Shown one piece after another: positions 20,371-64,000 of a DNA stretch of 64,000 nucleotides; the first letter of the stretch is position 1; every line of letters begins with the position of its first letter. The position numbers and the translations under genes are program-made. Where the stretch lies: positions 129,074 to 193,073 of the forward strand of contig KN832898.1 of the NCBI GenBank assembly GCA_000827325.1. Reading direction: 5' to 3'. Under the pieces are notes generated by a model. The model ran no database searches, had not been told where the DNA came from, and was given only the letters and a program-made list of their open reading frames with translations. The stretch comes from Oidiodendron maius Zn. Its lineage: Eukaryota; Ascomycota; Leotiomycetes; Myxotrichaceae.

Positions 20371-22555
20371 ATGCCCGAATCCTCTCTACTTGCCGCGAGA
20401 GAGGAAAGAATTTCAAATGACAAGCGCGCCAAGTACAGAGGTTCCGCTCAAGTATCGATTGAACACTTGGATTTTCCGCACCCATGCCGCCACATTGATA
20501 CAAATGTTATCGAACAACTGATAAGAGATTTTGAAGGTGAAGGATGTATCAAAGATACCAATCGGATTCCGGCCATTATCGACGATTCAGTTCTCCACGC
20601 AGGGCTAAAGAAACTAGCAATGAGCGCCGAATCTTTTAAGGCTGTTTCCAATAGCGTACCACCACGGCTTGATCTGGAACGCGATGTGAGGATAGAATGC
20701 TTGCACGGACAACACAGAATTCTGGCTGCCAAAAAGTTTCTAAAATCACCGAAAAGGTGGTGGATCGTTGACTTTTACAGCAGTGGTCAGTATATTGAAT
20801 ATTCTGAGATCTACGCTAATATCTCCGAGATCTCGAAGTGGATACCAAGCAGGCTCTTCGAGAAGGCGAGTTTTACTCGGAACCATACGCCTCCGGTGAG
20901 ATATTTCGCAACTTCCGACTCTGCTGTTACAATAAGGACGATTTGGGAGCGCAGCGTTGGCGAAACAGGCTCAAGCCCTATCAAGAAAAGTATCTCAATA
21001 TAATACTAAAAAGGGAGACTCTCATCAAGGCCTTGGACTCTGTCCTGAATATTAGTGGACTATGGAGGTCGTTTTATGCTGGCTCACTAAATGATTTTAT
21101 TAGTCTGGGTTGTGATGAAGTACGTAGTGAGGCACCATTTTAGACTGGGTTGCTAACCTGTACCAGGAAATTGCCCGTTTCATAAAGGCCATCAAGACTG
21201 AGTTTACACGCATCTTTGGAAACAACATGGTGATAATGATGGCCACCGATCCTTCGAGCATCGAATCCATCCAGTCGAGAGCTCCAGCCCTCTCAAAGTC
21301 GGACTTCAAATTCATCGATGAGGGTATGAGATCAGGAGAGCTATTTCCGGCAGTAGCAGACCCTGTGACGAGAGAAAACATCGCAGAGGGCCTCCTCTCA
21401 ACTGAGATGCCTATACAAAGCTTGTGGACGCTACTTTGTGACATTAGATACCTCAAGAAACCGGCAAGGCTCCTGAACGTTCTACTTCCATCCCGAAAAG
21501 AGAGAAAAATAAAGAATAGTCTGTATGAGAGGTTTCGCGTCTCCTTCACGGAATCAACCAGTAACGATTTTGAAGTACAACAGAGTACTCTATCTTATAA
21601 GCCCCTCTCAGGAAACCTTGTAGATCATTTCGACGCCGCATATCAACAGCTGTGGCTCTGTGCGTGTCGGGTCTGGAAATACCCGAACGTATATGGCCTC
21701 ATACAGCTGGCAACACTTGCACACCAGTTAGGATTCTCGACTACAGAGATTAAACACGAGCGCGCAAAAGATCCAGGTCATATAATTATCGAGAGAGCAT
21801 TTCGAGAGGGGCACTCTGTCTTGCGTCCAGGCGAGAAGTTTAGCTTCGATCCCAATCAGGCAATTTCTCTCATCAGATTATTTAACGAGAAAATGGATGA
21901 AACGTTAGGATCCTCTCCGATAGCATTATATCCCTTTATTACGGTGGCGGGGCCTGCCGAGCCTCTATCCCGCAGATGTGGCAATAGCTCTAAGGATACT
22001 GAAGACCTCGGCCATCTCTTCCTCGACAAGATACATGCCCCTCTTCAAGATTACCAAAGAGCTGGGGACGAGATTAGCTCTTTTTATGTCAAGCGGTCGC
22101 GACACATAGCTTTTTTTGGTACACTGGCCCTTGAGAATAACCCTCAAAACACATCAACTCGCGTACTATCGGCCAATCCACCTCAAACCCAAGATACGAG
22201 CGGGATGATTTCATCACATGCAGGCTCTCCCATCGAAGAATCCCGGTACTCTGACGAAGGATCTTCAAACCGAGCCCAAACTGACCCTGGACCGATTGGG
22301 AGGGTGGTTACATTTATGGAGAACAATGTGAATATTCAACAGGTCCCGTACGAGAAGCAGAAGATCAACAATCAGGCCCAGAAATATGCCGCGGAGGGAA
22401 AAAAGCTGCGACTGGAAAATGGACATCATTTTGTCTGGTACGACTGTTTTCGGGTCTTGGAGCTGGCACAAGAATTGACTGTGATTGTACACAATGTTGT
22501 TCAAGATCCAGAGAGACTCGATCAAGAGATGACATATATGGAGGCTGACATATGA
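20371..22555 (+). CDS. DUF3723 family protein, 694 aa
   Basis: A fungal family of unknown biochemical role, reported as a recurrent auxiliary gene of Starship giant transposons. Exons 20371-20785, 20839-21119 and 21167-22555 sum to 2085 nt (694 aa). Seen in the sequence: an N-terminal segment ending in VRIECLHGQHRILAAKKFL (the family's GQHR block), then WWIVDFYSS. The first junction then leads to DTKQALREGEFYSEPY and GAQRWRNRLKPYQEK. The C-terminal half has FDAAYQQLWLCACRVWKYPN and ends in a charged helix (YEKQKINNQAQKYAAEGKKL). The GQHR block resembles ParB/Srx-like folds, a distant possibility only. Introns are 53 and 47 nt with clear branch sites. Flanked by kinase-like genes on both sides. 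The frame is intact. Confidence 0.88.
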
Positions 22556-23046
22556 GTGCTTCAGGGCAGCGAAGTAATTAACTGGGGCAGCCGAGCAAAC
22601 TTCCTATTTTTTTGTCGACATGCTTCTTTGTCTTATGATGGGAGACAATACTAATAGAGACGCCCAGTTTCTCGACTTATGATTCCTCTCTCCTTCTCTT
22701 TATGTTCTATTGTATCTTAAATCAAAGCATGTTTTGCAATTTTCCAGGTTACGAGGATTACATAGAACTAAAATATTATATAATATCAACTCCAGGCAGC
22801 CAGTTACCTCTCCCCCCCAGGGTGAAACCCCAAAAGCCTCGCCCCAGGGGCGATACTGATAAAACCGTTCATCACCCCTTTTAAAGGAGGCAACTACTAC
22901 GGCTTACACCACCTTTTGGATGGCCACTCCAACAGATGCTGCCATCCAGAACACGCGGTCAGTCTCTAATTCACTTCTTTTGCTAAAACTAACATTCCAC
23001 GAAATATATCTACACAAATTTCAAACCAGTCTATCATCAGTGCAAA
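22556..23046. other. Intergenic region
   Basis: 3' flank of the DUF3723 gene and promoter of the second kinase-like gene. There is a C-rich stretch near 22810, but no gene. Confidence 0.4.
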
Positions 23047-23927
23047 ATGACCGAATCGTTTAAATTAAATCGTATGCAGAGAGCTAAGACGGTATTTCCT
23101 GGATCATCAAGATCGTCCCAGGAGGTCCACTCGGAAACCATTCCGCCTAAGACAACTAAGACCGTCAAGAAGATCCTGAGAATCTTGCTTAGAGACCCTT
23201 GGGAGGATTATGATTATATCATGCACCTTGACCAAGGTATCTTAGCAGTACACAGAGGATCGTCTTTTAAGATTGTTAGTATTCAGCAATTTCATTGTGC
23301 TGAAATACTCCAACAGACGCGAATGTTCTCCAGTATACAGCATCCCAACATTGCATCCATTTATGACATTTATTGTCATGATGAAAATCACTTTCTCATC
23401 ATGGAGCATCTAAGTGTTCGTATTTCCCACTTAGACATCCAAAATCACGAGCTCGAAGAATGGGAGATAGCCACTATAATTTTAGAGGTGATTGTAATTT
23501 GTCTCTTTGGGTAACCAGACTTACGATCATAGGTCCTGAAAGGGGTGGTTCATATATCCTCATTGAGGATATCTTGCAAAGAGCTGTCAAGTGACAACAT
23601 TAGACTGTCTCTGGATGGAGAGCTGAAACTTGGTAAGTTGGCTAGAGCACTCCTAGCACGCTTTTTCTGATATCTAGGTCAGTTATAGATCCCAATAACA
23701 TCAAGTACGATCCTTTATACGAGAGCCCAAGAATGTCGCAGGTCCTATTAGATTATCCTATCTTGGCTGAAATTATAGAAGAGATGATGCTTTCAAGCTA
23801 TCACCTTGCCTCGGATGATGATAGAAGGTCCGAGGAGGCCCTAAGCTTCTTATCATGTACGCTCTCGGGATCACTCGAGAGTTTGATGAACGTGAGCCAG
23901 CCAAAATTGGAATACTGGCATAACTGA
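23047..23927 (+). CDS. Kinase-like (pseudokinase) protein, 261 aa
   Basis: Exons 23047-23487, 23533-23632 and 23683-23927 sum to 786 nt (261 aa). The order of elements is that of a protein kinase: RMFSSIQHPNIASIYDIYCH with HFLIMEHL (helix C to hinge), VLKGVVHI (helix E) and ISCKELSSDNIRLS at the place of HRDLKxxN. HRD has become CKE; there is no VAIK lysine in the expected context and no DFG. The exon boundaries fall at the same structural places (before helix E and after beta 7) as in the gene at 18429-19507, so the two are related. It is probably a non-catalytic scaffold or sensor. All splice sites are canonical and the frame is open. Confidence 0.7.
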
Positions 23928-25072
23928 TGATATAAATAGCATTGTTTCCTAAATCTTGCTGTATCGCCAAGGAGGCTGATCCCGCGGATCCGTTACAACT
24001 ATGAAATCTCGCGGGGAGATGCTAGCCATCATAACTAATGACGAAAGACTTCCGGTTTTGAAATTAAGTCTTAGGCTATCACTTCGGACTCACATATTTC
24101 ACTGATTTGTGCATAAATCTCAATATTCTACACTTGTCTTAAGAAGATAATTTATCCCAAATCTTATAGACTATCCTATCGAAATACAAGCCTTGAAATC
24201 GTTCGTACTAGCTAATGGTCGTATTCCGACTGTTGTCAAGCCCAGGATTGTCGTCATTTTGAGATGATGCATACCATCGGATGGTGAAAGCATACCATAA
24301 AGTTCTTGATGGTAGAGGACAGAATGCACAGGAGGTCGGTGGGCCACGCTCAAGGCCATAATAATCCTGGTGATAGAGGCCGCAAAAAGGTAGCGGGTCC
24401 GATGGTCTTGCCATAAGCTTCCGGGTGGTCGAGACTAGAGGAGGGGTGGGTCGACCATGCTACTCCTGGGGAGGGAGTTAAATCTAACCATCCCCGAGAT
24501 AAGGGCCACCGAGGGGGGTGGGTTCGCCATAATGTTCCTTGGGGGAGGGCCATAAAGGGTATAGTAGAGCTAGTAAATCACCATACGGTATATGAGGGGA
24601 GCCATACAAGGGATAGCAGCGCCGGTAGATCGCCATAACATTCATAGGGGGAGCGGTCGCTGACAGGGGTAAAAATAGTAGTAGGTCAGCATAACGTTCG
24701 TAAAAACCCTGCATCGCTGGCCGTGAATTAAGACCCACCCACGTAACAAAACATAACGCCCGTAATAGAGTGGCCACGTGAAAGATGATGGGTCTGGGGT
24801 GGTATCCCGGTAAGCTATATTGTGAAGAAATGGTCGTGGAGTATGTGATGAACCGTAATACGCTATCGTGTCAGCGTCAACCTCTTTTGCGGTCAATTTT
24901 AGAACAATATAAATAAAGATTTAATGACAGTCATACGCGATTAACGATATTTTGTACATAGACTATTTCGTAATGATAGTATTCTAATTTGGAAACATTA
25001 TGCCTTTCAATTACGTGATCTTCAGTCGATATTGCCCTGGTCACCTCCTTCAACACCTTTCAGGACTAGCAG
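23928..25072. other. Repeat-rich intergenic region
   Basis: From about 24240 to 24800 it holds degenerate units of the 46-bp family. The overlapping minus-strand frames here (62-97 codons) arise from that repeat. I see no gene. Confidence 0.65.
24240..24800 (-). repeat. Dispersed minisatellite, degenerate array
   Basis: CCATAATGTTCCTTGGGGGAGGGCCATAAAGGG-like units (for example at 24528) and weaker copies (CCATAAGCTTCCGGGTGG, GCCATAACATTCATAGGGGG) share the core of the arrays at 4.0, 6.8 and 31.7 kb. Spacing is no longer regular, so this is an old array. It has the same orientation as the 4.0 and 31.7 kb arrays. Confidence 0.6.
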
Positions 25073-26308
25073 TTAAATATCATCATTTAAAGGATTAAGT
25101 AACTGGTGTATATTAGATTCGCGTCTTACTTGTGGAGGTTGAAGATCCTGAAATGAGGAGGAGACTCCAGGTGCATTTCCAGCGGTAAAGCCTTCTACAC
25201 CGGGCTTCACCAGGACCTCTGAATATGGTAAGGCGGTCAGCATTGAAGAGTTAGCTGTAAAAGAAGTCGTCATCTCAAAAGCAGATTCAATGGTGCCGTA
25301 CTCAAGATTGTTACCGGGTAGATGGCTGACAAATATGTGAAATGGAGTACAATTCAAAGAAGACATGAGCCAAAAGCAGTCCCAGATATTTTGCTTGAGG
25401 AGTTGAAAGTAACGCAAGTTCCCCCCAGGAACAAGTATGGTTCCTCCATCGTACCAGTTGCAATCCAGTAGTTTGAATCGAAGAACAGAGACTTTCGCGG
25501 CGGCCTTTGATTCAACCGCATACCATTTGTAGAAATCGGTCGAGGTCTGCCTCATCAAGGCCTCCACAGGGTAAAGTATACCTTCAGTCGGACATCCCTT
25601 TGATCTTAGGAGAAGTCGCGCATTCCTTGAGAAAAACTGAAAGAGAAGGTCTATCTCGGTCGGGGATAGAGCGGACCTAATTTCATTCTCAATCGTGAAT
25701 GTGACGGCGTTAGATTTGCAAGGCTGCTGCGGTATCATGAGTTCAGATGATGGTGTAGTCGAGAATGGCGGGAGAAGTGGCGGGAGATATTGATGCTGGG
25801 GCGCTAGTACAATGTCTGAGTTTAAAGCAGCATGTAGGTGGGCTACATCCTGTTGAGAGCGAGTTGAATCTTGAGCTGGTGGATGGACCTGTTCGGGCCG
25901 TAGGAGAGGCTGTAACTCGGTACCGTGAGGGGCTGTGCCATTCCAAGACGATCTTAGGCGCTCATCAGGCCTTTGCGACAATTCATCGTAGCAAGCAACC
26001 GAGTCGACTGTGTTCGTGGAAGCCCTCTGTGTATTCCAAGGCGTTGTATTATGAAGCGTACTCCCTTGGACCACTTCGCACCCATCTAAAGCACGCTTCG
26101 TCGCTAGTTGATCCGCATCTTCAACCCCGTCAATGTGGCCTTTGCCATCTTGTAGACTCAGTTTCTCTCTCGATCCCATCTCGCCAACGACGGTCCCCTC
26201 GATTGGATCCGACTCAACCGCGTCAGTCATTCTAGTGTCAACAACGATACACTCGTCAACCCCTTCCCCTATATGGGCCACACTTCTCCTTGTTCGTCTA
26301 ACTTGCAT
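25073..26308 (-). CDS. Hypothetical protein, 411 aa, intronless
   Basis: I do not recognise this family. It is a single frame from an ATG at 26308. Residues 1-210 are low-complexity and rich in Asp, Glu, Ser, Thr and Gln, and look disordered. Residues about 215-340 look folded: IENEIRSALSPTEIDLLFQF, then YKWYAVESKAAAKVSVLRFK, then LLDCNWYDGGTILVPGGN and NIWDCFWLMSSLNCTPFHIF. The tail is again polar. The two-part layout suggests a regulatory protein with a globular C-terminal domain, but no DNA-binding or catalytic motif is visible. The overlapping ORF on the plus strand (25765-26235) is a shadow. The length of the open frame, over 1.2 kb without an intron, supports it as real. Confidence 0.6.
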   Translation of the reverse strand: MQVRRTRRSVAHIGEGVDECIVVDTRMTDAVESDPIEGTVVGEMGSREKLSLQDGKGHIDGVEDADQLATKRALDGCEVVQGSTLHNTTPWNTQRASTNTVDSVACYDELSQRPDERLRSSWNGTAPHGTELQPLLRPEQVHPPAQDSTRSQQDVAHLHAALNSDIVLAPQHQYLPPLLPPFSTTPSSELMIPQQPCKSNAVTFTIENEIRSALSPTEIDLLFQFFSRNARLLLRSKGCPTEGILYPVEALMRQTSTDFYKWYAVESKAAAKVSVLRFKLLDCNWYDGGTILVPGGNLRYFQLLKQNIWDCFWLMSSLNCTPFHIFVSHLPGNNLEYGTIESAFEMTTSFTANSSMLTALPYSEVLVKPGVEGFTAGNAPGVSSSFQDLQPPQVRRESNIHQLLNPLNDDI

Positions 26309-27956
26309 GAGGGTTGTGCCGGGTCCCTCTGGCTTACTCTTTGGAAAATTCCCGTTCTTCGGACGGAAATTTTGCTCGTAGGTATTTCCAGTGAGTTATT
26401 TGATGCAAGAAAGCCCGCGTAAGCTCCTACCAAGTACCCTGCAATTACGTCCCAGTGCTTGCAGAGGGAGGATATACCGGTTTTCTTGGCTCGTCGGACT
26501 CTACTGGGTTACTTGTCAGCCGTGAATATGCGGAATGTGAGCGTGAACTTGCTTGGACGTTAAGCAACTTGATCTTAACCTACGACAAATTGCCCTAGTT
26601 ATCTTTCTGCTAGGCAAGCTAGACGCAGTTTCCCTAGCACGGGTCAAAGTAACTGGACATATAACATAACGAGACGGTGGTATTAGATATTTCGAAGTTG
26701 AAGGTATATATCGGCTTAGGGTAGGTACAATGATGCGTAACAATCAACCCCATGCCTGGGCCTAACATGAATTTCCGGCCATCGAGTACTGTGCATAGCC
26801 ATAGCGCTTGTAAGGCCAGAAAGGCCTAGGAGGAACTGGTGGATCAGACCATAACGTTCCTGATGTACGTGGGTTAGCTCTCTGGACCCCTGGCCTTCCG
26901 CCGGTATGCTGGCCTTACGCGCGGCCCCTCACGAAACGTATGGCCTCGACCCACCTTTCGTAGCCCATCACCCATCGTATGGCTTCACCTACGAAATTGC
27001 CACCGACCCACCTGTTTAGCCGACATGCCTTTTGGACGGCCAGCAGACTCAGCCCCAAAGATTTCATCCAAACCCACGCATCTGCAGCGGCCAGAATTCC
27101 GACCAGCTTTTGCGATGTGCAACAAAAGAAGATCTAACCTAATTGGCTGGCTTAGCGAGTATTTATTACGGGGCCTACCCCTTTTTAAGCGAGAAGCGCC
27201 TCTCACAAGGGGGAATCATAGTGGTCTTGTTTCGAACGCTTATTGTTTTGTCACTCAATATTTGAGCGCTAATTTGATAGAGTTACTGCATCCAAATCCT
27301 CTACAAGATGTCACTTCTCCAAACTCTCCTTGATTTGACTTGTCTGAGCATCCCAGCGCCTGCGAATATCCCTATACTTTGAAAGCGTGAGAGAATCGGG
27401 CCTCTCATGGGCCGGTTTGGCTTTGTTTTGCTGACAGGAGGGTCTTTGTTCACATTGTGGTAGCGTTGTGTTGCGCTTCGAGAAAAGAGAAGTTAGCCGT
27501 CTAATTATAGTGCTTCGCGGTTGCCGTTTCTCGATCGACTGCTCTCCCTTCTTGAAGACACACATGTTAGATTTAGGCTAATAATGTTAGAAGCAGAGCT
27601 ATGGAAACAATACTGGAAGATATACCTCTAATTTGGTTGCACTCTTAGTTGCTTTGCGGATGACCGTTTTAGAAGTCATCCAGCAACATATGCAATGGCA
27701 ATCCTAATGAAAACTCCGTCATGTCCCACGAACGTAGATAAAATCGCAATCTGTAGGCGACACGCAACCAATGCAAGAGGTAATCCTCATATCAGTGTCC
27801 CCATGACTCTGTCTGACCAGCAACTTTTAGCTTGCTCAGTCCTTCCGCCTTCTCACTGACCATCGCATCCTGGCTGGTAAACAGGATTGCGTCTCGGGCT
27901 CATAATAAAGAGACATCACACTTGTGCACGGTTAATTGACCTCCTTTCTTTACACA
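26309..27956. other. Intergenic region with small frames and a repeat relic
   Basis: Mostly featureless. Around 26840-26880 (ACCATAACGTTCCTGATG) there is a single diverged unit of the 46-bp family. Small frames at 27025-27333 (plus) and 27311-27565 (minus) overlap slightly; only the second starts with ATG in a plausible setting and is listed separately. Confidence 0.45.
27311..27565 (-). CDS. Small basic hypothetical ORF, 84 aa
   Basis: An ATG-initiated frame (MCVFKKGEQSIEKRQPRS) rich in Arg, Lys and Gln. No motif and no known family. Its size is near what chance allows, and it lies in a long region without other genes. Kept only as a weak candidate. Confidence 0.15.
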   Translation of the reverse strand: MCVFKKGEQSIEKRQPRSTIIRRLTSLFSKRNTTLPQCEQRPSCQQNKAKPAHERPDSLTLSKYRDIRRRWDAQTSQIKESLEK

Positions 27957-30900
27957 ATGGCGTCGTGTGCCCATCAGCAATGGCTACGACTGAACGAGGA
28001 CGAGAATGGCTTCGCGGTACAGTATGGAAGTCGGCTCTACAATATCACAAACTCCTTTCTCTCTCCGGCCAGGCAGTACCCGTCCTTAATTTTCTTCATC
28101 GGTAAACGTGCCAAGGCAAGAGCTCTGCGGGCTTTATTCCCTGGGAGTGACATATCCAGCTGTTGGAGGTCTGGCGTAGCAAATATACGCGCCGATCAAA
28201 CGTCAACGAATGATGATTATCCAATTCTCATTGCTGACAGTTCTCCAGAGTATACTCATTCATACTCGAGAGTAAAGGATATCTGCCATGAGACCATCAC
28301 TCACCACGTATCCTGGCCGGATGACGAAAACGGCTTACCAACGCAGCAGGATCTGATCGACCACGTCCACGCTCGACTCTTATCGCTATTTACTGACGTT
28401 CTCTGCATATTCGCACAAGACTGCGGTGGCATTGACAAGGTAGCAGAGCGTCTTGCCGCCTGGACGGCAATTGGCTCCGCATCAAGCCTCCCGACCAGTG
28501 TTCGTCCTCGGTTGCTTGTTGTTACGAGCATCAATGGGAACGACTTCCACGCGGAGGCTCTTCGATTTCGCCTTCGGGTGTTCTCGGATTCCAAATTCTC
28601 TGACTTGTTCTCGTCTTTGAATGTTGTGAATATATTGGGATTGGGTCGAGCTCAAAGGGGGGATTTTAGCGGCCTGGGGGAAATCTTGGGCGAAGAGACA
28701 AGGGCGGCGCGTCGAGAAAGAGTCAATACGCATACCCTGTTCTCCATGGTCCACCTTGCGGCATTCTTTGATATGGCGCTGAGAGAATTTGCGGCATCGC
28801 CGCGGCAGACGTTCGACTTTATTCAGCACACACGAGAAGACAATCCTACTCCGCCAAACTTTCAGCGCCACCTGGCATCGTTCATGACCTTATGTTCTGA
28901 GAAAGAGCTACCTGAGAGCATCCTTTGGGATTTCATTGCTTCCGCGATTGTCCTGGACTGCTTCCCTCCTGACATGCACTGTAAGAGCCGAGTCGCCACT
29001 ACTACTGATATTCTAACCAGGTTCAGTGTTCAATCCATCAGAAGTCTTCCACACCTTCTATCGGCCCGCGTGCCTCCTTGGCATTAACGACTTTGCAGCC
29101 TCCCGACAGCTTTCGACCGAGTTGGTCTGTGCGGATATCGAGGGACACATAATATCTATGTTCTCCCACATGAAATATGGTGGGCAGACCGCAGTGGCAC
29201 TTCGGCTACAAAGCCTTGAGCGCAATAGGCAGTATTGGCAGCTGTTGAGATCCAATGTCGACTGCTTTATCTGCCTCCAGAGAAAACCAGAGCATGTCAT
29301 GGGTTGTGGACATGGCATATGCGATCCTTGCGTCACTATCCGCGGATTCAGCCAGCCGACGAGAGGAAGGGAGTACCACTACGAGATCACCACCTGCCCT
29401 CAATGTGGAACCGACATATCTTTTCAGGTAAGAATTGTGCCGCCGACATGCGGAATACGATTCCTTGCTATTGATGGCGGTGGTTCAAGAGGCATTGTAT
29501 CACTCGGATTTATGGAAGAACTCCGGCAGGCACTGGGCCTGCGCTACGCCGTTCAAGACAACTTCGACTACTGCATTGGTACCAGTTCAGGTCAGTCAAT
29601 AATGCGGCTTAGAGAATTTGCGCTGATGAATTCTAGGCGGTATTGCAACCATCGGGCTTTTTGGCAAGCACTGGACCCCAAAGAAATGCATTGCTTTTTT
29701 CCAGAGGTTTGCAAGGAATATTTTCCCGTCCAGGCGCAACGCCAGAGTCTCAATTTGTGCTATAATCAAGCGTCTTTTTTCATTCTACTTTGAGGATGGG
29801 AAGTACGATGCAACCCTCTTGGAGGGGGTTATGAAAGAAGCGCTTGGTCTCGATCCTATTTTTACGCCACCGAAGTCCAGATCTTCTGGGATCAAATTCG
29901 CAGTTACTGCAACCACCATATCTGATGCAACACTTTGTTTAATGTCGAATTACAACGGTGAGGGTAGTCATAGTAAAGAACTAAGTGTGTCCACACTGTT
30001 TCGCAACGTCACTGGACTAATGAAGTGCAGGGTATAAACACCTACGAGCAGCCCAACCTGACGATGAGCTCTCGCTCTGGGAGGCGTGAGTACTACCAAT
30101 GGTCCACTTACTCGCTGCTGATCAATCACAGTGCTAGATGTACCACTGCGGCGCCCACGTATTACCCTCTGCAGCAGGCCTTCGCAATCTATACTGACTA
30201 GAGGCATAGTTACTTCAAACCCAAATTCCTGCCGTTGTTTGGTACCTTTCAAGACGGGGGTTTGAAATACAATAACCCAGTGCGGCCCGGCATGCGCGAG
30301 GTTCGCCGCATCTGGAAAGACCGTGACTGCGACCTTGTCCTCTCCATTGGGACCGGCTTCGAGCAGAAACTGATGTCACCCGTGGCTTCCAATGTCCGAA
30401 ACCTACTCCAGGATGGAGCGCTGGCGCGGCTCTACCGGGCGTCTATGGACTCACTATCTCTCAATGGCCAGATGAGCTGGGAGGATCATTGGTTTGGCTT
30501 GGGAGAAGAGGCAAAGAAACGGCATTTCCGACTGAACCTGCCCTTGGCAGGTAAGGAGCCTAATATTGATGACGTAGACCAGATGCCATACCTCTACGAC
30601 CAGATCCGTCTTCACCTAGGCGATATGGAGGGCATAGCCAGGGCATTTAAGGCCGTATCCTTTTTCTTCGAGCTAGACGAGCCCTTGGTGAAAGAAGGCG
30701 GGCGCTACAGGTGTCGGGGATCCATCCTATCCCGCAGTCCAGATAGTCCGCATCTTGTGCAGAACCTTGAAACATGCTTCCCATCTGCACAGTTCTTCAC
30801 AATGGAGACCCCAATTGGTTTTCTCAGCTCGAACGATATCTGCTCTCAGTGCGGACGTTTCCAGAAGGCGGTCGTATTTTATGTACGCCATCCATCTGAT

Positions 30901-31161
30901 CTAGTCGATGTGTACATCGCGTTCAACAGATTATACCGCCAGAGTATTAGCTCGTTCCCGGAAGCGATGCAACATTTTGAGGAACGCCAGAGGATTAGAG
31001 CAAAGTTCGGGCAACCCGACCATAGGAGCAGGGTTGAGCCACCGAGGGACCCTTCCTGTAGGTGCGACCTTCAGCGCTTGTGGAAATCGATGCCAAGCAC
31101 AGAGAGCAAAAAGCGTCCACTTACGACTTGGACTAGGAGTAGGAAACGGCGATGTATATGA
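27957..31161 (+). CDS. RING-patatin fusion protein (patatin-like phospholipase), 982 aa
   Basis: Patatin-like lipid acyl hydrolase fused to a zinc finger. Six exons (27957-28980, 29021-29590, 29637-29957, 30031-30085, 30132-30158, 30210-31161) sum to 2949 nt (982 aa). Residues 1-410 form a large alpha/beta and helical region of unknown role. Around residue 422 lies a RING-like finger: CFICLQRKPEHVMGCGHGIC, then CPQC. The patatin domain follows: oxyanion loop DGGGSRG at about 493, nucleophile elbow GTSSG with Ser 530, and catalytic Asp in QDGGLKYNNP at about 681, so the Ser-Asp dyad is complete. The C-terminal 200 residues are mixed. Introns of 40-73 nt are canonical; one exon has only 27 nt. 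Patatin-like genes are a recurrent class in Starship elements and in fungal allorecognition NLRs. Here no NB-ARC or NACHT is attached. Confidence 0.9.
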
Positions 31162-52100: not shown

Positions 52101-52876
52101 AGCCCCTCGACAAAGTGTTCTCTTAGCCGGATGGCATTGCGAAGAATACGGCCACGGCTGCCATGGTGTTTAGCATGGCGTATATCTTGGTTAGTGAATG
52201 GGCTGGGCGTGATAGAGGGGTCGGGCGCAAAGAGAACCATTGCCCCGGTGTCTCCGGGGAGCTGGACAGGATGGAGAACAGAGAAGGTCGAGAGGATAGC
52301 CATTGCTGCTAGGAATTAGGAAGAGGAGGTTGAAAAAAACAACGGCGGTTGGCCAGTTTATCTCTCCTTAATCCAGAGCTGGCCTTGGATGCTTAAAGTC
52401 AAATGGATACATTTCATCTCAATACAAATCCTGACCGGTTCGAGATCATCTCATAGTATCAGAGCAATTTATATTCGGACATCCCGCTCAAGCACTGTGT
52501 CTTCTCTATCACTAATTGGCAGCTAGCTAATTAGATACTTCACAACCTAGCTCCTGAAGCAGATTTGGTAATTATCGCCTTGCTAAGTCACCATTTTAAT
52601 ATGTCTTTTGTCTTGCACTTAGTCTTACGCTGATACACATTCCATCTATTATCTGCCGTCCGCTAGAGTACACTATTCGTCCAGGAACTAAAATCCATGG
52701 TATGCTGGGTGTGGTTAGCATAAAATAGTCTTTAAAAGTGATGACGTATTTTACTTTGGTAGGATCCAAACAGCTGTTAATTTTACCCAGCTATTGTGGC
52801 CAACATTTGCGAAGTTCGAAAATATTTCATTGAGAGCTGTAGCTAGTTAGCACCGAATCTCTTCGCCAGGATCAGG
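52101..52876. other. Intergenic region
   Basis: It contains minus-strand frame 52040-52303 (87 codons), without recognisable motifs. AT-rich toward the right. No gene called. Confidence 0.35.
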
Positions 52877-53314: not shown

Positions 53315-53862
53315 TTGAGGAGATTTATAATGGTGAAGCTAAACGGGAGTGTCGAGACGGGCAGCAATCTGAAGTCCCGAAGGGTATTTATAGAACTGAC
53401 ATGGAACAATTATTACTACACATGGTTATCCATGGATCCCTGCTCCCTTGGCAATGAAAGCAAGGATTGAGTTTTCCGAATATGTGGGAGGGCTGGATTG
53501 AGACCAAGTCCAACATGCTCTGAACATATCCTACACGGTCAACCAGCCGTTTTGTGAGGTATGAAGGACATTAATTTGAAGGTCACAGAAGTGATGGCAG
53601 TAATAACTGTGCCTATAGGCCCGCACCGAGGGAGGTTGGCCATACGAGAAGTGATGGCCTGGCGATAGGTACTTCGGCTATTGGCAAACACAAGTGCGAT
53701 ATTGCGATGCTGGGAGTCGATGGCCATAACAGAGTGAGTGATGGGACACACGTGGGCCCAAGTTGACAGATCATCGTCTTTGCAGTCCTATAAATGAACT
53801 AATAACGTTATGTTCTAGTTTATTGCTCCCTATTATCTGTAAAATCCTACAGTCCCGTAAAC
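53315..53862. promoter_or_regulatory. Bidirectional promoter, membrane protein and P450
   Basis: A 548-bp spacer between two divergent start codons. It has no open frame of note and no obvious repeat. Its role as a shared promoter is inferred from gene orientation alone. Confidence 0.35.
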
Positions 53863-55653
53863 ATGTGGTTTACCTTCGGCGCGGTAATCACATACTTGGC
53901 TGTGGAAATCATCCGTTCGGTATACCGTCTCTATTTTAGCCCTCTGGCAAAATTCCCTGGACCTAGATTAGCTGCCGTCTCGCGACTCTACGAATTGTAC
54001 TATGACGGGTACCAGCCAGATGGTTATATCCGCAAGTTGAGAGACCTCCACGAGGAATATGGTATCTACCCAGCTCGCAGCTTCGTCAAATTTCTCATAT
54101 TTGGGCAGGGCCAATAGTTCGTATAAATCCACGCGAGGTTCATATCGATGATCCCAAGCTTTATACAGAGCTTTGTGGTAACCCAAGGCTAGATAAAGAT
54201 CATTGGTACTATAATGTTGGAGATGCCATAGTTACGACACCTAGCTACGAAGAGCACAAGCAGCAAAGGGCTGCAGTCTATAGGTTTTTCCAACCCCAGG
54301 CCCTCAAGGACACTGAATCTTTGATCTTCGAAACCGTCGAAAGGCTTTGCCTGGGTTTCCGGTCCATCCCCGGAGGTTTCGTTAACTTGTCAAATGCTTA
54401 TCGATCTTTGACTAATGACATCGTCACTACCTTCTACTTCTCGACTTCGAATAATCTCATCGATGAGGATAATTATGCAGCCGAGTTCCACAGAGCATGC
54501 GGAGGCTTCCTACGTCTGTTGGCCTTCATTCGTCCATTCGGAATCGTGGGACATATACTCACGGTAATGTCTCGATGGTACCAACATTTGCTTAAGCCGG
54601 CACCAAAATTACGATCAGTCCTCCAGCATCAGCAGGTATGACAGGCCCAAAATGATTTAATGAAAATCTACCCTAACTCAGATCCAGAACATTGGTATTA
54701 GAGTAAATACAGCAATTAAAAACCATCGTCAGCACCAAGTACCAAAAGCCAGAGGTCTGATATATAAGCTTCTCGATAGTTCTCTGCCGATGAAGTACAA
54801 GAGTCGTGCTCGTTTACACTCTGAAACTCTTGGTGCTATTATCGCGGGAACTGAGGCTACAGCGAACGTCCTAGTGACAGCCACCTTCTACCTCTTAAGC
54901 AACCCTACATGCTGCGAGAAACTGAAGACCGAGTTGAGAGAGGCATGGCCAAGTAGAGGAAACCCGGATATTAAGAGCCTCCTTCAACTCCCTTATCTGG
55001 TACGTCGCTCTCCACATACTGCAAACGAAGGAAATGTTGACCACAGATAGACGTGTGTAATATTAGAAGCGTACCGGTATGTTTTTCCTGTTGTTGCCCA
55101 CCGAAAGATATAGACTCACATTTTACGTAGCTTGGAGGAAGGCAGCGTTTTCCGAAAGCCAATGGTAAGCCGGACTCCATTAAATCTCAGAGGACGGATC
55201 ATCCCGGCTGGTGTAAGTGCTATCAGTGTCTGTCACCTCAATTAGTGCTAATTGGGGAACCAGACTACATTCAGCTTCACGCCTAAGCTCAATCACGAGA
55301 ACAAGACAATATTTCCAAACCCCCAAGTTTTCAAACCTGATCGCTGGCAATGCCAAGATAATCAAGCTCTCAAGAAGTATTTAGGAACCTTCTCAAAGGG
55401 CAGCAGAAGCTGTTTGGGTCAACAGTAAGAACAGCTTTCCTTCAAATCTGCTTGCCACTAAAGAGAGAATAGTATGGCAGAGAGACTTATATTCGCGACT
55501 GTTGCATATGTTTTCCACAACTTCGATTTAGCTTTTAGAGATATCAACGAAGAGACTGGAAGATCCGATGGGCTATTAAAACTGTTCCCTCCAAAGAGTT
55601 CCCGTGGGTTAACGGTTAATATCGTCGCTGCACGAGGGAGGCATATCGTTTAA
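53863..55653 (+). CDS. Cytochrome P450 monooxygenase, 497 aa
   Basis: Heme-thiolate monooxygenase anchored in the ER. Seven exons (53863-54061, 54109-54635, 54682-54999, 55051-55076, 55131-55212, 55264-55424, 55473-55653) sum to 1494 nt (497 aa). The start shows a membrane anchor (FGAVITYLAVEIIRSVY) and the KFPGPRLAAVSRLYELYYDG proline hinge. The I-helix has AGTEATA, in which threonine is present but the preceding acid is Glu. The K-helix is EAYR (ExxR), and the heme loop is FSKGSRSCLG with the axial cysteine. The order and the RIIPAG to FSFTPKL block match CYPs of trichodiene-oxygenase type. Six introns of 46-54 nt are all canonical, one leaving a 26-nt exon. The gene looks intact. No synthase gene lies nearby, so the substrate is unknown. 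Confidence 0.9.
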
Positions 55654-56299
55654 CCGTGATCATGAAATTTATTACTATTAATCGTTTACAACTACCTCAC
55701 TCCAAGGAATGCTCACCTCCTATGTATAATCTTGCTTTAGATTCTCTTGATTAGAGAGGTCACTCATACGCAGGTCGTACCTATCTCTATTTAACTAACC
55801 CTAACTACACATCGAAGCAACTAGACCACGTTCTCCACCCCCGGGTGGCAGTACGCCGTTTCCGAATCTGGATATACTGACTCTAAGATTAGCTTAGACT
55901 GAAGCGTATTTTCCATCCTGAAACTAAGGAGCGGGCTAACAAGAAACCGCTGACCGCATGCGCCGTATCCGATCAAACCTGCTCCTCTTCGGATCAACTC
56001 AAGTCCCATCGAATGCTGCTGGCCGACCCAAGACAATCACTCTTGCTAGCTAAGTCACGTGATATTGCACGTGAAATTTCTTTCTGATACTAGAGCTATT
56101 ATGGCTAGCTGGTTTTCCGGCCAATCTGAATATCTGCCTAAGGATTAGAGCGTCATCAGTCCCACCATCGCCACGAGGGTGTTGTTCAGCTCTGTCGATA
56201 TGAGTGCACACAACTCAACAAATAACTACGTATGCATACGGACCTTACCACAAATATTACTGAGAACGCTTCCTAAATATTCGAAATCTGGTCTGACTA
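55654..56299. other. Intergenic region
   Basis: Promoter side of the first NLR gene. Frames at 55821-56036 and 56179-56493 are shadows or chance. No repeat. Confidence 0.4.
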
Positions 56300-59200
56300 A
56301 TGCGTTTACTAGCATACAACAACGACGGCGAGTTCAGCCTAACCCAGTTCTTTGGCGGCGACATTCCCGAGCAGTATGCTATACTTTCGCACAGATGGGG
56401 TCCGGAGGAAGTCGCCTTGGCAGATCTTATGGATGGTACTGGCAAGAAAATGGCGGGCTACAGCAAGATACAGTTCTGCGGAGAACAGGCTAGACGTGAC
56501 GGCTTGCAATACTTCTGGGTGGACACCTGCTGTATCGACAAATCCAATGCCGTTGAGCTTCAAGAGGCCATCACCTCAATGTTCCGCTGGTACCAGAATG
56601 CGGTCAAATGCTACGTCTATCTATCGGATGTTTCGACAGCCAAGCGGAACAGAAGCACTTCGCTCTCTGGGTGTGATTGGGAATCGGCTTTTCGGGCAAG
56701 CAGATGGTTTACCCGAGGATGGACCCTTCAAGAGCTCCTTGCCCCGAGTTCAGTTGAGTTTTTCTCCCAAGAGGGCAAGCTGTTAGGTAATAAGAAATCC
56801 CTGGAGCAACAAATTCCCGAGATAACTGGAATTGCTGTTTCAGCGATTCACGGAGCCCCTCTGTCTCATTTCAGTGTTGAAGAGCGTCTACTATGGGCAA
56901 AATATCGCCAGACCACGCGCGAAGAAGACAAGGCATACTCGTTACTAGGCATATTTGATGTCTATATGCCGCTTATATATGGTGAAGGGAGAGATAATGC
57001 ATTGAGCCGGCTCAAGGAGGAGATCGACAAACCTTCGAATGGTAGGTGCTTAACTTCGATTTGATATCTAGTATAGCCACCTAAACGAACCCTGACTAGC
57101 AACTTAGGACTTGATCGTCTTCCGTCCGCTGCTGATGCACCGTTTAATTCATACAACAAACAACATGCCCCTCTCTGCCTGCCCGGCACCCGAGTCGAGC
57201 TATTACAAGAGATATACAACTGGGCTGATGGACGAGATAATCGGTGCATCTTTTGGCTTAATGGTTTGGCCGGCACAGGAAAATCAACAATTGCGCGAAC
57301 TGTCGCTCGCAGATACTTTGAACAAAAGCGTCTTGGGTCCAGCTTCTTCTTCTCAAGAGGCGGTGGAGATGTTAGTCATGCTAGCAAGTTCTTTACGAGT
57401 ATTGCTGTGCAGCTTGCGCACAACGTGCCACAAATCCGGCGATTCATCTGCGATGCTGTTACAGAGCAGAATGACATTGCAAACCAGTCTCTCCACGACC
57501 AGTGGCGCCACCTTGTATTCCACCCATTGTCAAGGCTAGAAGAGAGCTCATCTCTATCCGCATACGTGCTTATAGTCGATGCCCTTGACGAGTGTGATAA
57601 TGAGGACGATGTCCGGATTATTCCACAGCTCTTAGCTGAGGCTAGATTGCTGAAGATTCGACTACGGGTACTAATCACAAGCAGACCAGAGGTTCCGATC
57701 AGATACAGTTTCCTCCAGATTCTAGATGCTGACCACCGTGACTTCATCCTTCACGATATACAAGCGGCCATTGTAGACCAAGATATTTCTACTTTCCTCG
57801 ACTATGAACTGAGATCGATTGGGCAGGAACGGGGTCTTGAGTCTAGCTGGCCAGGTGAGCCGGCCATCCGGCTGTTAGCGCAAAAGGCTAGTGGCTTGTT
57901 TATATGGGCCGCAACTGCATGTCGCTTTATTCGTAAAGGCCGACGTTTTGCTCCGAGATGACTTGATATAATTCTTAAAGGCGACAAATCTGTTGCTCTA
58001 CCGGAAAATCAACTTGGCGAGATCTACCTAACTGTCCTCAAGAGCTCTATTCACCAGTGTTATACGGAACAAGAAAGAGAAGACATGTACAATACAATAA
58101 GAGAGATTCTTGGAAGTATTGTTATTTTGTCCTCTCCCCTTTCTGTTGACGCCCTTGCTAGGTTACTCTATATTTCTAAATATGACGTTAACCAGACGCT
58201 AGATGATCTTCATGCGATCTTGAAAATCTCGGAGGATAGAACTCGCCCACTCCTCCTGCATCATCCTTCATTTCGTGACTTCCTGCTTGATAAAGAGAGG
58301 TGCAGTGATCCGAAATTTCAAGTAGACGCAAGGCAAGCGCATCGGACCTTAGCTAATAACTGCATACGGCTTATGTCGACCTCTCTCAAGCAGGATATCT
58401 GTGATGTTAAAGCTCCCGGAATACTTGTAACTGATGTAAAAAGTAGTCAAGTGAACAACTGCATTCCTCCGGATATTCAATACGCATGCCTATATTGGGT
58501 CCAGCATCTACAAAGAAGCAATGCTCAACTCTATGACGAAGTTTATCTGTTCCTACAGCACCACTTACTTCACTGGCTTGAGGCCCTTAGCTGGATAGGA
58601 AAGACTTCAGAGGGGATTCTTGCAATATCTGCCTTAAAGTTGTTTACTACAGTAAGCCATCTTAATAGGCTTCTATTAAATCTTACTAAAATTAGTATTT
58701 AAGGCCGATGAAAGTCCTAATCTACAGACATTCATTCACGATGCAGAGCGATTTACTCTATACAACCGATCAGTAATTGAACAAGCCCCACTCCAATTAT
58801 ACTGTTCGGCCCTTGTTTTCGCCCCAGAGAAGAGCATTATTCGGAAAGGATTCGAGAAGTGTATCCCAGCTTGGATTCAAACAAAACCGAAATTACAAGC
58901 TGATTGGAGCGCTACTTTGCAGACGCTCGAGGGCCACTCATTCTCAGTCGAGTCAGTGGCGTTCTCACCAGACGACAAGCAGGTAGTGTCCGGGTCGCTC
59001 GATAAGACAGTGCGGCTCTGGGACGCAGTAACGGGAGCGACGATTCAGACGCTCGAAGGTCATTCGGAGCCAGTCAAGTCAGTAGCCTTCTCACCGGACG
59101 GCAAGCAGGTGGTGTCCGGGTCGGACGATACAGCAGTACGGCTCTGGGATACTGTGACAGGAGCAGTGCTTCAGATTCTCGAGGGCCACTTGTCCTCGGC

Positions 59201-60419
59201 CGAGTCAGTGGCCTTCTCACTAGACAGCAAGCAGGTAGTATCCGGGTCGGACGACAAGACAGTGCGGCTTTGGGATACTGTGACGGGAGCAACAGTACAG
59301 ACGCTCAAGGGCCGCTCGTTCTCAGTCATGTCAGTAGCCTTCTCACCAGACGGCAAGCAGGTAGTATCCGGGTCGCTCGACAAGACGGTGCGGCTCTGGG
59401 ATACCGTAACGGGAGCAGCAGTTCAGACACTCGAGGGACACTTGGGCTGGGTTTACTCAGTGGCCTTCTCGCCAGACGGCAAGCAGGTAGTGTCAGGGTC
59501 GCGCGACAAGACGGTGCGCCTCTGGGATACTATTACGGGAGCGGCAGTTCAGACACTCGGGGGCCACTCGGGCTGGGTTTACTCAGTGGCCTTCTCACCG
59601 GACGGCAAGCAGATCGTGTCCGGGTCAGATGACGAGACGATACGGCTCTGGGATACTGTGGCGGGAGCGGTACTTCAGACGCTCGAGGGCCACTCGTTCT
59701 CGGTCAAGTCAGTGGCCTACTCACCAGACGGTAGGCAGGTCGTGTCCGGGTCGCTCGACACGACAGTGCGGCTCTGGGACGCAGTAACGGGAGCGGTGCT
59801 TCAGACGCTCGAGGGCCACTCGGGCCGGCTCCATTCAGTAGCCTTCTCGCCAGACGGCAAGCAGGTAGTATCCGGGTCGCACGACGCGATAGTGCAGCTT
59901 TGGGACACTATGACTGGAGCAGTACTTCAGATGCTCGAGGGTCATTTGGGCCCGGTCAATTCAGTAGCCTTCTCACCAGACGGCAAGCAGATCGTGTCCG
60001 GGTCAGATGACAAGACGATACGGCTCTGGGATACTGTAACGGGAGCGGCACTTCAGATGCTCGAGGGCTACTTGTCCTTGGTCGGGTCAGTAGCCTTCTC
60101 GCCAGACGGCAAGCAGATAGTATCCGGGTCGCTCGACAGGACGGTGCAGCTCTGGGACGCCGTGACAGGAGCAGTGCCTCAGACACTCAAGGGCCATTTG
60201 TCCTTGGTCGGGCCAGTGGCCTTCTCGCTAGACAGCAATACTACACGCAATTTATATACATCAAATAATTGGGTAGCAGAAGGGGGATCAAATCTTATCT
60301 GGCTTCCTCCCGCTTATCGAGTGACTTGTGAGGCTGTCTGGAACAAAATCATTGTATTAGGGCACTCATCGGGGAGAATTTCTATTCTCGGATTTAAGGA
60401 AGGGTCAAGGCTTATATAG
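56300..60419 (+). CDS. HET-NACHT-WD40 NLR (HNWD type), 1333-codon model with an in-frame TGA
   Basis: Fungal NOD-like receptor of the heterokaryon-incompatibility type. Exons 56300-57041, 57108-58651 and 58704-60419 sum to 4002 nt. HET domain, residues 1-235: YAILSHRWG, FWVDTCCIDKS, GWTLQELLAP. NACHT from about 280: Walker A GLAGTGKST near 300, and LIVDALDECD near 403. A helical linker follows (LLLHHPSFRDFLLDKER), then NRSVIEQAPLQLYCSALVFA, the usual lead-in to the propeller. Ten full 42-residue WD repeats and one partial close the protein. The frame is broken by TGA at codon 532 (57959-57961), in RRFAPR-stop-LDIILKG where family members have an arginine. A 48-nt GTAAAG to TTAAAG segment around it would splice out in frame, but it removes conserved residues. 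The gene is probably a recent pseudogene or a two-part gene. Confidence 0.85.
58917..60230 (+). repeat. WD40-coding tandem repeat, 126-bp unit
   Basis: Ten complete 126-bp (42-codon) units and one partial. The repeated words are GTGGCCTTCTCACCAGACGG, CAGGTAGTGTCCGGGTCG and CGGCTCTGGGA. Units are nearly identical except at a few codons just after GH, near the SGS-D element and before the LWD strand. Those positions line the propeller surface in HNWD proteins and are known to vary under diversifying selection. High nucleotide identity between units fits concerted evolution by unequal exchange. Confidence 0.92.
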
Positions 60420-61073
60420 GACTAGTAAACGCTTTCTGCATGTAATATATATTTTTTCATACCTCTATTTCATAGAGTTTCTTGTCACGGCGGTGGCTGG
60501 GCTAGCTGGTCACCTGATCAGCTACCAGAGCTCTGACCGTGACCTCACTTCGACTAGTCAGGTGACTAGCCGCCTGTAAATATAGAAAGCTCCAGAGGGC
60601 CAAAGGGGCTGTAGAGCTTGCAACCTGGTTGACAAAGACCTGCTTCTTTGAGGACATATGCCCTCGACAGCCCCCCCCCCCCTCTTTACTAGCGAATAGC
60701 TAACTTTATGCTCACTTTTCTTTGTTCTGTACTATTATATTAGTGGTAGGAGTATAGCGAGGTCACGGGGTAGGGGACCGGGAGCGCATGGCTTTATAGT
60801 GGTTGATAACTGCCACTCAGTGTCTAGAATCTTCTAGATTCCTCTACGTATAGTATGACAGGATGATGGCGAGTTTGTACTTTGCAGGTATTGGAATCAG
60901 AAGATCAATAATAGTTGGGTAAAGAATCCTTTCAACAGCGATGCTTCCGACACAGCCACTGCATAGCCGCCCAAGGCTGAAAACAAACAGCCCTGTGTCC
61001 AAACTTGATTCCATCCTATATTTCACAGCGTCGTACATCATAGAATGACAATGAGTACACAGCAGACGCCACA
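60420..61073. other. Intergenic region between the two NLR genes
   Basis: It contains an imperfect inverted repeat at about 60484-60580 (GTCACGG to CCGTGAC, with GGCGG, CTAG and GTCACCTGA also repeated in inverse). There is a C-run at 60670-60682. Frames on the minus strand here show no motif. Confidence 0.45.
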
Positions 61074-64000
61074 ATGAGCTTCGGATTCAGCATCAGCGAC
61101 TTCATCGCGATAATCGAACTCGCTACCAAAATCCGGAAGAATATCATATCTGCTCCAAGGCAATTCAAAGATATCACTGACGAGTATGAGGCTTCAATAT
61201 ATTATTCATGGCTGCTAACAACTTTTATTTAACAGAACCAGGAGTCTCTCCATTACCCTTCAGGATGTTGATGTTGCCCTAGAGGACCACGAGCTTAGTG
61301 ACGTGCAACGCAGACACCTGGAGGAGATTACTGAGAACTGCCGAAATGTTCTCCACGAGCTGCAAAAGACATTAGAGAAGTATCGGCATTTAGAATCATG
61401 CCATAAGTACTTAGGAACAAGGAGGGAAAGGGTTTGGATGAGAGCCAGATGGGAGCCAGAGGATATACGAGACCTACGAAGTCGGATCACATCAAATGTT
61501 ACTTTGCTCAACACATTCCTCGGACGAATATCTAGGTAAGCGCCCATGGACATCTTTGTATCTCTTAATTGAATTAGGGCAGTAATGCGATCACTATGAC
61601 AAAAATCGGGGTAGATCGCTTAAATCGACTACAAGATGACCAACAGCGACAAGTTATTCTCAACTGGCTTACGCCAATCGACTACACCCTGGAGCAGAAT
61701 AATGCCCTTAGTAGGCGCGAACTAGGGACATGTCAGTGGCTGTTGGATTCGGTAGAGTATCGGGAGTGGATAGAGACTGACAAGAAAACGCTGTTCTGCC
61801 CAGGCATCCCAGGCGCAGGAAAGACAACCCTTACGGCCATTGTCATTGAGAACCTTACGTCGCGGATTTATAATGACCCGAAGATAGGCATTGCATACAT
61901 CTACTATAGCTTGGAGCGAAGGGAAGAACAGACAGTTGACTCAATGCTCACAAGCCTGCTAAGACAGCTCGTTCAAGGCCTATCTCCTGTGCCACAAGTT
62001 ATAGAGAAGCTCTATACTGAGCACGAAAAGAAAGGGACGCGACCCTCTCGTGAGAAAGTTATGAAAGCTCTCCATTCCGTGACCACTGTCTATTCCCGAG
62101 CCTATATTGTCGTTGACGCTCTTGATGAATGTCACACTGTCGACCGCGCGCGAACAACATTTCTTAAAGAGATATTCAGCCTCCAGGCCAGCTGCTCAAT
62201 AAATATCTTTGCCACTTCGAGATTCATTCCAGAAATTATGAAGAACTTTAAGGATTGCATAAGGAAAGATATCTGTGCTAGTAACGACGACATAGGAAAG
62301 TACCTGGACGGTCGCATGTTCCAACTGCCAGGATTTGTCACTCGTAGCTCCAAACTCCAAGAGGAAATTAAGACTAAAATCATCCAATCAGTGGGAGGGA
62401 TGTACGTGCCTTCCTTCTCGCATGGAACGGGAATGCGATGCTAATAGTGACAGGTTTCTACTTGCAAAATTCCATCTAGAATCTCTTATCGGAGAGGAGT
62501 CAGCAAGAACAACTCGTAGAGCCTTAAAAATGTTACCAACAGGGTCCAATGCATACGATAAGGCGTATATTAATGCAATGGAACGAATTAAAGGGCAAGT
62601 TGAAGGGCAAACGAAGCTTGCTATGCGGGCGCTATCATGGATCACTTGCACAAAGAAGCAGCTTACCACGTCGGAACTCCAGCATGCTCTAGCAGTGGAG
62701 TCGGGCGATACCGAGCTTGTCATGGATGGCCTCCCGGAAGTTGAAGACATAGTCTCTGCTTGTGCAGGGCTGGTCACTGTTGACGAAGAAAGCAACTTCA
62801 TCCATCTGGTCCACCGCACGGCGCAGGAATATTTTGAGCGAACACAAAACGACCTGTTTCCAAGGGCGCAATTCGATATCACTGTTGTCTGCGTTACCTA
62901 TCTCTCATTTGAAGTCTTTAAGAGAGGGGTTTGCCAAACGGATGACGCGTTCGAGGATCGTTTACTATTATATCCGCTCTATGAGTATGCTAGTCACCAC
63001 TGGGGCCATCACGCTCGTCAAATTCCGAAGAATCCTATGTTGGGCCAGATTATTGTAGGATTTCTTGAGAGCGATTTACAAGTGGAGGCATCGGTTCAGG
63101 CACTTCTGGCTGTCAAACGATACCAATCACATAAGGGATACAGCCAAGAATTTACTAGACGTGTGACAGGATCTCACTTGGCGGCACACTTTGGACTTGA
63201 CGACATCATGAAGAAGTTGGAAGTGCGCGGGAATAACTTAAATTACGAGGATTCTGAAGGTCGAACACCGCTATTGTGGGCTGCAGTGCTCGGGCACACG
63301 GCTGTTGTCGAACTACTTGTTTCGAGAGAAGACATCCGCGCGGATGCTCCGAACAATAGATCCCGAGTACCCTTATTAGCTAAAATGTTCGATCACCAAG
63401 CTGTCGTTAAGCTTCTGCTCGATACTGGCATGGTTAGTCCTGACGTAGAAGATGTGAATCATGGCCGGACACCTCTGTCCTGGGCAGCAGAGAGAGGCTA
63501 TATAGATATTGTGGAAAGTCTCCTCAGCACAGGTGGTGTCGGTCCCGATTTGAAGTCCCGCGGATCTTGGGCCAAGGGCCGCACGCCGCTATCTTATGCT
63601 GCTGAGGGAGGACACCAGACTATAATGGAACTGTTAGTGCAAACTGGGAAAGTCGATCTAGATTCGAAAGACATTTCCGGCCGAACTCCTCTATCATATG
63701 CGGTACCACGAGCAGAGATCGGAGCAAGCAAATATCTACTAGAAAAGGGCGCTAGCCCCATGATAATTGATATTCATCAGAAAGGCCTACTCCACCATGC
63801 GGTTTCTCGTGCGGACTGCAACCTCAACACTATCAAGACGCTGCTAGAACTCGGTGCGCCAAAATATTTAGTAGACGATGACAACATGACACCGCTACAT
63901 TATACATCTTTATACGGGGGGCCCGATATCGCAAAGCTGCTAATACAAAATGGGGTGAAAGTAGATATCGGGATTCGGAGGAGGGGGTGGAAACAACGGC
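61074..64000 (+). CDS. NACHT-ankyrin NLR with Helo-like N-terminus, 3' end outside the window
   Basis: A STAND-type receptor. Exons 61074-61183, 61236-61535, 61583-62401 and 62454 to beyond 64000 stay in one frame; about 925 codons lie inside the window. The N-terminal 165 residues (SISDFIAIIELATKIRKNI, then SLSITLQDVDVALEDHEL) fit the fungal STAND N-terminal (Helo-like) domain. NACHT follows: CPGIPGAGKTT near 211 (Walker A) and YIVVDALDEC (Walker B). Helical linker: IHLVHRTAQEYFERT, the NLR winged-helix hallmark. Ankyrin repeats begin near codon 665: GRTPLLWAAVLGHTAVVELL, GRTPLSWAAERGYIDIVESL, GRTPLSYAAEGGHQTIMELL and others to the edge. Introns (52, 47 and 52 nt) are canonical, and no stop or frameshift is seen. 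It lies 654 bp after the HET-NACHT-WD40 gene on the same strand. Confidence 0.9.

Follow-up and report, generated by a model that had tools for sequence, protein, structure and literature searches.

The stretch of Oidiodendron maius Zn DNA considered here, hereafter the window, comprises 64,000 nucleotides at positions 129,074-193,073 of the 242,219-bp contig KN832898.1 (C29 below; a window coordinate equals the C29 coordinate minus 129073), and it appears to lie within a Starship, a giant transposon led by a captain gene. Genes were modeled with a home-made intron-aware finder at a lax setting, which gave 70 predicted models of at least 80 amino acids on C29, and domains were assigned by a Pfam scan on exons (80 exon references, 78 distinct, longer exons preferred). 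On its plus strand the window carries a DUF3723 gene (window 20371..22555; E 6.8e-21 and 1.1e-52), a RING and patatin-like phospholipase gene (27957..31242; patatin E 1.3e-6; GTSSGG and DGG motifs in the protein) and a ferric reductase gene (35616..37685; Ferric_reduct 1.8e-9, FAD_binding_8 3.6e-7), all three of Starship auxiliary classes. To these are added two genes for nucleotide-binding oligomerization domain-like receptors (NLRs), also on the plus strand: a HET-NACHT-WD40 NLR with the architecture of het-d/het-e (56300..60419) and a NACHT-ankyrin NLR (61074..64000, extending beyond the window to C29:194314). An earlier reading from the sequence only had placed the window inside a Starship, intact or degraded, because it saw these five genes together, and Pfam bears out all five; the captain, the sharp border with a shared terminus and the auxiliary classes now found on the same contig support that placement as well.

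The captain, a DUF3435 tyrosine recombinase, occupies the right contig end on the minus strand (C29:239958-242219, with DUF3435 matches at 240,366-241,944), and its recombinase domain is spread over several exons, of which a single one scores 98.2 bits against a cut-off of 25.8. It points toward the window, and a captain facing into its element is an expected feature of Starships. By eye, its frames are open up to the contig end and the protein has a zinc-finger-like C-terminal tail. Our genome-wide searches covered one genome, a 45.9 Mb assembly, and their match counts are lower bounds. A related captain on contig C33 (93% identity over 796 bp) includes, further upstream, a start codon (by eye); its own recombinase domain is disrupted. 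A second captain on C29 is reduced to its tail (C29:230422-230981, minus strand), which is a 91% copy of the first captain's tail in the same orientation. At least 22 DUF3435 matches occur in the genome, where captain fragments are scattered. Both C29 and C46 stop within captain-like sequence, the former in its N-terminal part and the latter in its tail, a sign that captain repeats may interrupt the assembly.

The opposite limit is a sharp border 85 kb to the left of the window. At C29:44,191/44,192 the GC content switches abruptly from 17% to about 60%. The left flank up to 44,191 (37,844 readable bases) bears the marks of repeat-induced point mutation (RIP), with GC 25.9%, TA/AT 1.64 and (CA+TG)/(AC+GT) 0.20; the 198-kb block from 44,192 to the contig end is not RIP-mutated (48.2%, 0.78 and 1.25, respectively). 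A query of 1,441 bp spanning the border matched contigs C34, C6 and C1 on the element side, C49 on the flank side, and C26 (71%) in its internal part only; the matches on C34, C6, C1 and C49 were fetched and aligned. On the element side, where the 3′ terminal sequence occupies C29:44192-44614, TATAATAAAATTTATGTCGGTGATTCTGCTTCAGGAAGCTGC is common to C29, C34, C6 and C1 with small changes, most of them in C1, while in the 60 bp left of the border motif described below only 17-26 of 60 positions are alike among the four. The 26-bp terminal pattern, with up to three mismatches allowed, has three sites in the 45.9 Mb (C29, C6 and C34; not C1), and the reversed control has none. A sharp border is thus common to copies at different sites, one of the features by which Starships are recognized. 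GTCGGTGATT, a further copy of which would mark the 3′ border of a nested element, was found in the block, on both strands, only at the border itself.

On the flank side, a paralogous, insert-free copy of the left flank lies at C49:533-1555 (80% alike; its right side is not comparable). The match to it ends at the border although the query continued into the element, and over 110 bp all 20 of the 20 differences between the C29 and C49 flanks are C>T or G>A changes towards C29. The RIP edge, the stop of the flank match and these changes therefore indicate that an un-mutated block sits within a mutated repeat. Weaker flank matches were found on C25 (66%) and C24 (69%).

A 13-bp motif at C29:44179-44191 adjoins the 3′ terminus, and a second copy in the same orientation, at C29:230982-230994, adjoins the truncated captain: the remnant ends at 230,981, exactly where TATGATAAAATTC starts. 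The two copies agree at 11 of 13 letters, and each of the two differences is a RIP-type change in the left copy. For TATRATAAAATTY, both variable letters occur in the C34 and C6 borders, and the 198-kb block holds three occurrences on the two strands together: at the border, at the remnant junction and, on the other strand, inside a caspase-like gene. Read from the captain side, the border motif is RAATTTTATYATA. Eleven bp of the border, TAATAAAATTT, have a single occurrence each in the C29 block and at the C33 locus; in the latter they precede the captain's start codon (read by eye) by 493 bp. A more distant captain at C1:6149500-6150400 has TGTAATAA about 480 bp upstream of its start, with a long interspersed nuclear element (LINE) RNase H-like reading beyond (by eye), and another at C11:208050-208960 has no such motif at the corresponding place. 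The sequence-only reading had proposed looking in the flanks for a DUF3435 gene near one end and for short direct repeats at an insertion site. The gene is present 47-49 kb right of the window and faces it; as to the repeats, there is a sharp left border and a same-orientation motif copy at the truncated captain, and the assembly ends at the intact captain.

What was directly observed, namely an inward-facing captain, a 3′ terminus shared with other sites, the edge of RIP, the copies of the border motif and the domains of the cargo, points to the whole window (1..64000, C29:129074-193073, no strand) being interior cargo of a giant Starship of 187 kb to more than 198 kb, inserted in a RIP-mutated AT-rich repeat; we put the probability of this reading at about 0.9. 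The element is a new Starship, with a captain junction and an NLR-rich cargo, of a kind of transposon that is already known. Its limits may be 44,192-230,981 (186.8 kb), or 44,192 to beyond 242,219 (more than 198 kb); the window lies inside the element under either. Both sizes fall within the Starship range of about 15-700 kb (PMC12134995). The element would run leftward from a captain-bearing 5′ end to the 3′ end at C29:44192, having inserted, within the RIP-mutated repeat, at an AT-rich target resembling TATRATAAAATTY. By the most likely mechanism, the captain would recombine both ends at the short direct repeat, and the unit would be re-inserted at a similar AT-rich target, carrying its cargo along; DUF3723, ferric reductase, patatin and NLR genes would travel with it, and cargo may be exchanged between related elements. 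Captain-dependent transposition is reported to have been experimentally shown for another Starship, without demonstration of a circular intermediate (PMC12506042).

How far the auxiliary classes cluster was assessed against the rest of the genome, which has at least 27 DUF3723, 24 Ferric_reduct, 28 Patatin, 58 NB-ARC and 152 NPHP3_N matches (the last with 150 of 218 candidates scored). After hand-merging of neighbors these reduce to 14 DUF3723, 21 ferric reductase and 18-19 patatin loci. All four classes with two NLRs would fall in a random 64-kb segment with a probability of about 3e-7 if independent, or about 2e-4 genome-wide; this test and those that follow were set up after the cluster was seen and assume a uniform genome. 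Of 18 patatin loci, 3 fall in the 198-kb block (P 7e-5), as do 6 of the 210 NLR matches (P 4e-4); these counts overlap, since two of those three patatin loci form the N-terminal parts of NLRs. NLRs are common in this genome and carry little weight alone. With C29 left aside, captain, DUF3723, ferric reductase and patatin loci form eight pairs within 50 kb, a number reached by 70 of 5,000 random placements, and four pairs within 20 kb, reached by 144 of 5,000.

Several points weigh against this interpretation. Contig C29 terminates within the captain gene, and the 5′ end, the right flank and the matching direct repeat there therefore fall outside the assembly; the captain's N-terminus was found nowhere else in the assembly, except in the C33 relative and in 69-71% matches on C11 and C1. 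The C29 captain reads MGN, where MGH is usual near the catalytic tyrosine, which leaves its activity in doubt. Given the second captain remnant, the block may be composite, and a portion of it is unread sequence (N). C29 is the only contig on which the 3′ terminus could be tied to a captain; at C34, C6 and C1 no full captain-bearing element was shown. The chance of a motif copy lying exactly at the remnant junction, about 1e-5, was computed post hoc. So was the 11-bp repeat at the C33 locus found, and it was matched by 12 of 2,000 shuffles and by 4 of 410 real windows; alone it is therefore only suggestive. Between the two more distant captains, one has a loosely similar motif and the other none. 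As for inverted terminal repeats, the longest inverted match between C29:44165-44204 and the 5′ region of the C33 captain is 8 bp, which 520 of 2,000 shuffles equal or exceed, and this candidate was rejected. In addition, three of the eight locus pairs within 50 kb come from one C1 cluster.

The alternative that deserves most attention differs from the reading above in the limits of the element and not in its kind: two related Starships would adjoin or overlap, the window's element being 44,192-230,981 with TATRATAAAATTY on both sides and a captain reduced to its tail, and the intact captain and a HET-NB-ARC-TPR gene belonging to the neighbor. We give this arrangement a little under an even chance. 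The first element would then be immobile alone, or moved only by a captain acting in trans. In its favor are the motif copies at 44,179 and 230,982, with their shared orientation and their RIP-type differences, and a correctly oriented captain remnant that sits at the right end and terminates exactly at a motif, a coincidence of the low post hoc chance given above. Conversely, a special event would be required to delete most of a captain up to precisely the repeat, and the sequence right of 230,994 is neither known 3′ terminal sequence nor recognized as flank. The 91% likeness of the two captain tails also speaks against it, since the tails are therefore not a recent duplication. Alternatively, the element of the single-Starship reading may extend past 242,219, in which case the junction at the captain remnant would be an internal scar.

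Two further explanations would dispense with a Starship end at the border or with the Starship altogether. If the region were host DNA of an accessory or rapidly evolving sort, the NLRs and other auxiliary classes would have gathered there for reasons of their own, and the captain and the border would be unrelated remnants; the NLR wealth of this genome and its scattered captain fragments (both counted above), together with a comparison that rests on one genome, give that idea some room. It fits poorly with a sharp border whose terminus is common to three other places, with un-RIPped DNA inside a RIPped repeat, with an inward-facing captain at the other end and with the reappearance of the border motif at the captain remnant, and we regard it as improbable. 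Slightly less credit still is due to the left border being a small dispersed repeat that happens to coincide with the stop of RIP. The C34 copy runs for only about 380 bp before unrelated AT-rich DNA, and the stretch in common with C6 and C1 is about 70-95 bp long, as such a repeat might be. Yet no target duplication is visible by eye around the C34 copy, the repeat begins exactly at the RIP edge, and a copy of the border motif also stands at the captain remnant at the opposite end. A Starship carrying the whole window remains the best explanation.

Among known elements, the C29 Starship can be compared with Sanctuary of Bipolaris sorokiniana, which measures 170-196 kb, carries two ferric reductase, three NLR and three patatin genes and has a 6-bp repeat (PMC12506042), and with Horizon of Pyrenophora tritici-repentis, 143 kb in length with ferric reductase, NACHT, ankyrin and HET genes (PMC9594970). 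The first gene of a Starship, next to the 5′ edge, is the captain; in Sanctuary it lies about 350 bp from that edge (PMC12506042). The C29 element shares with both a DUF3435 captain, probably likewise at one end, the size class, a border with putative short direct repeats and a nested smaller transposon; with Sanctuary it shares NLR, patatin and ferric reductase genes, and with Horizon ferric reductase, NACHT, ankyrin and HET genes. It differs from them in its six NLRs accompanied by caspase-like and CHAT proteins and in a truncated second captain that ends at the border motif; unlike them, too, it is known from one genome and its 5′ end is outside the assembly. The target resembles the Hephaestus type, TTAC(N7)A, in being short and in its putative short direct repeat, and differs from it in that RAATTTTATYATA has no TTAC core (PMC12153272). 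Gaeumannomyces Starships are described as being without most auxiliary genes (PMC12134995), and a full auxiliary set is therefore not a rule. No publication on this element was found in the literature searched, a weak negative given that subscription papers were mostly outside the coverage.

Elsewhere in the assembly, the 3′ terminal sequence recurs at C6:2091460-2193815, where DUF3723 matches lie 52-55 kb inward of it; this is a candidate second element, in which no captain was detected. C25:44574-156499, with two DUF3435 loci, one ferric reductase and three DUF3723 genes in 112 kb, is a candidate for another Starship region. No 5.8S rRNA gene scored over threshold in the assembly.

The remaining genes of the window are varied cargo. 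On the plus strand are an arrestin-like protein (window 4300..6192; Arrestin_C 3.2e-12), an MFS transporter (7283..8994; MFS_1 3e-36), an ATP-grasp protein (14645..16759), a seven-transmembrane channel of the RSN1/CSC1 type (44467..46987) and a cytochrome P450 (53863..56087); a second MFS transporter (1719..3465) is on the minus strand, as is an exon of a Tc1/mariner-type transposase nested in the element (13910..14926; DDE_3, HTH_Tnp_Tc3_2). The exon scan thereby agreed with the sequence-only reading on the ATP-grasp, arrestin, channel, P450 and MFS genes. It did not recover the Myb/SANT-like and Sho1-like genes named there, since no such domain appeared in the scanned window exons (some small exons were left out). 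An F-box exon match also lies within the window. By eye, apparently the same 46-bp tandem-repeat unit occurs at window 6807-7041 and 31633-31767, 25 kb apart and in opposite orientations.

The block as a whole is rich in NLR and cell-death genes. Six NLRs and three patatin loci were counted in it, and P-loop motifs are present in all six NLR models. Outside the window are two patatin-NB-ARC-TPR NLRs (C29:94443-101551, minus strand, and C29:105664-109982, plus strand; both from Pfam), a NACHT-WD40 NLR whose N-terminus looks alpha/beta-hydrolase-like by eye (C29:203636-208410, plus strand) and the HET-NB-ARC-TPR NLR (C29:231047-238294, plus strand; Pfam). Over 2-4 kb the DNA of the three NB-ARC-TPR NLRs (C29:94.4-101.6, 105.7-110.0 and 231.0-238.3 kb) is 75-78% alike; two begin with patatin and one carries a HET domain, a pattern that looks like an exchange of N-terminal domains. 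Free-standing in the block are the caspase-like protein (C29:216298-218322, plus strand; YAGHG and DCCYSG motifs), a TPR-CHAT protein (C29:222318-229039, minus strand; FAGHG and SACSTG motifs), the RING-patatin protein and one HET fragment. A protein at C29:200083-201138 has a stretch resembling GIY-YIG by eye and no Pfam match.

The HET-NACHT-WD40 NLR has its domains in that order, the motifs YAILSHRWG and GLAGTGKS, and 10 nearly alike 42-amino-acid WD40 repeats (one degenerate last repeat left out). The 42-amino-acid repeats of het-d/het-e vary at positions 10, 11, 12, 14, 30, 32 and 39 (PMC12222747), and four codons are reported to be under positive selection in the numbering of a second paper (PMC1805685). 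Five of the seven most variable columns here (11, 12, 14, 30 and 32) fall on those seven published positions (overlap P 4.7e-4), and positions 10 and 39 are outside the top seven. In domain order, in its 10 highly alike 42-amino-acid repeats and in these five of seven columns, the gene is like het-d, het-e and het-r (HNWD) of Podospora anserina (PMC1805685, PMC12222747); unlike the HNWD genes, it is cargo of a giant transposon and known from sequence alone. Such features make a role in self-recognition plausible for this NLR, and the most likely function of the cargo NLRs is in cell death and in the distinction of self from non-self between hyphae. A bolder proposal, which we consider unlikely, sees in the Starship a mobile self-recognition island that would carry its own receptors, with HET, patatin, alpha/beta-hydrolase-like (by eye) and unknown N-termini and at least one fast-changing recognition surface, as well as executioners of the caspase-like, CHAT-TPR and RING-patatin kinds; fusion between a hypha that has the element and one that lacks it or bears a rival would set off cell death, and the element would thereby be protected or favored.

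What began as a hunch from gene content is now an element for which a captain, a mapped end and a target-site motif are at hand, together with a second end that can be tested. The exact junction of truncated captain and border motif offers a concrete case for how Starships lose or swap captains. Moreover, with six NLR models whose P-loop motifs are intact, one of them with variable positions of the incompatibility type, it becomes possible to ask whether such genes serve allorecognition or are passive cargo.

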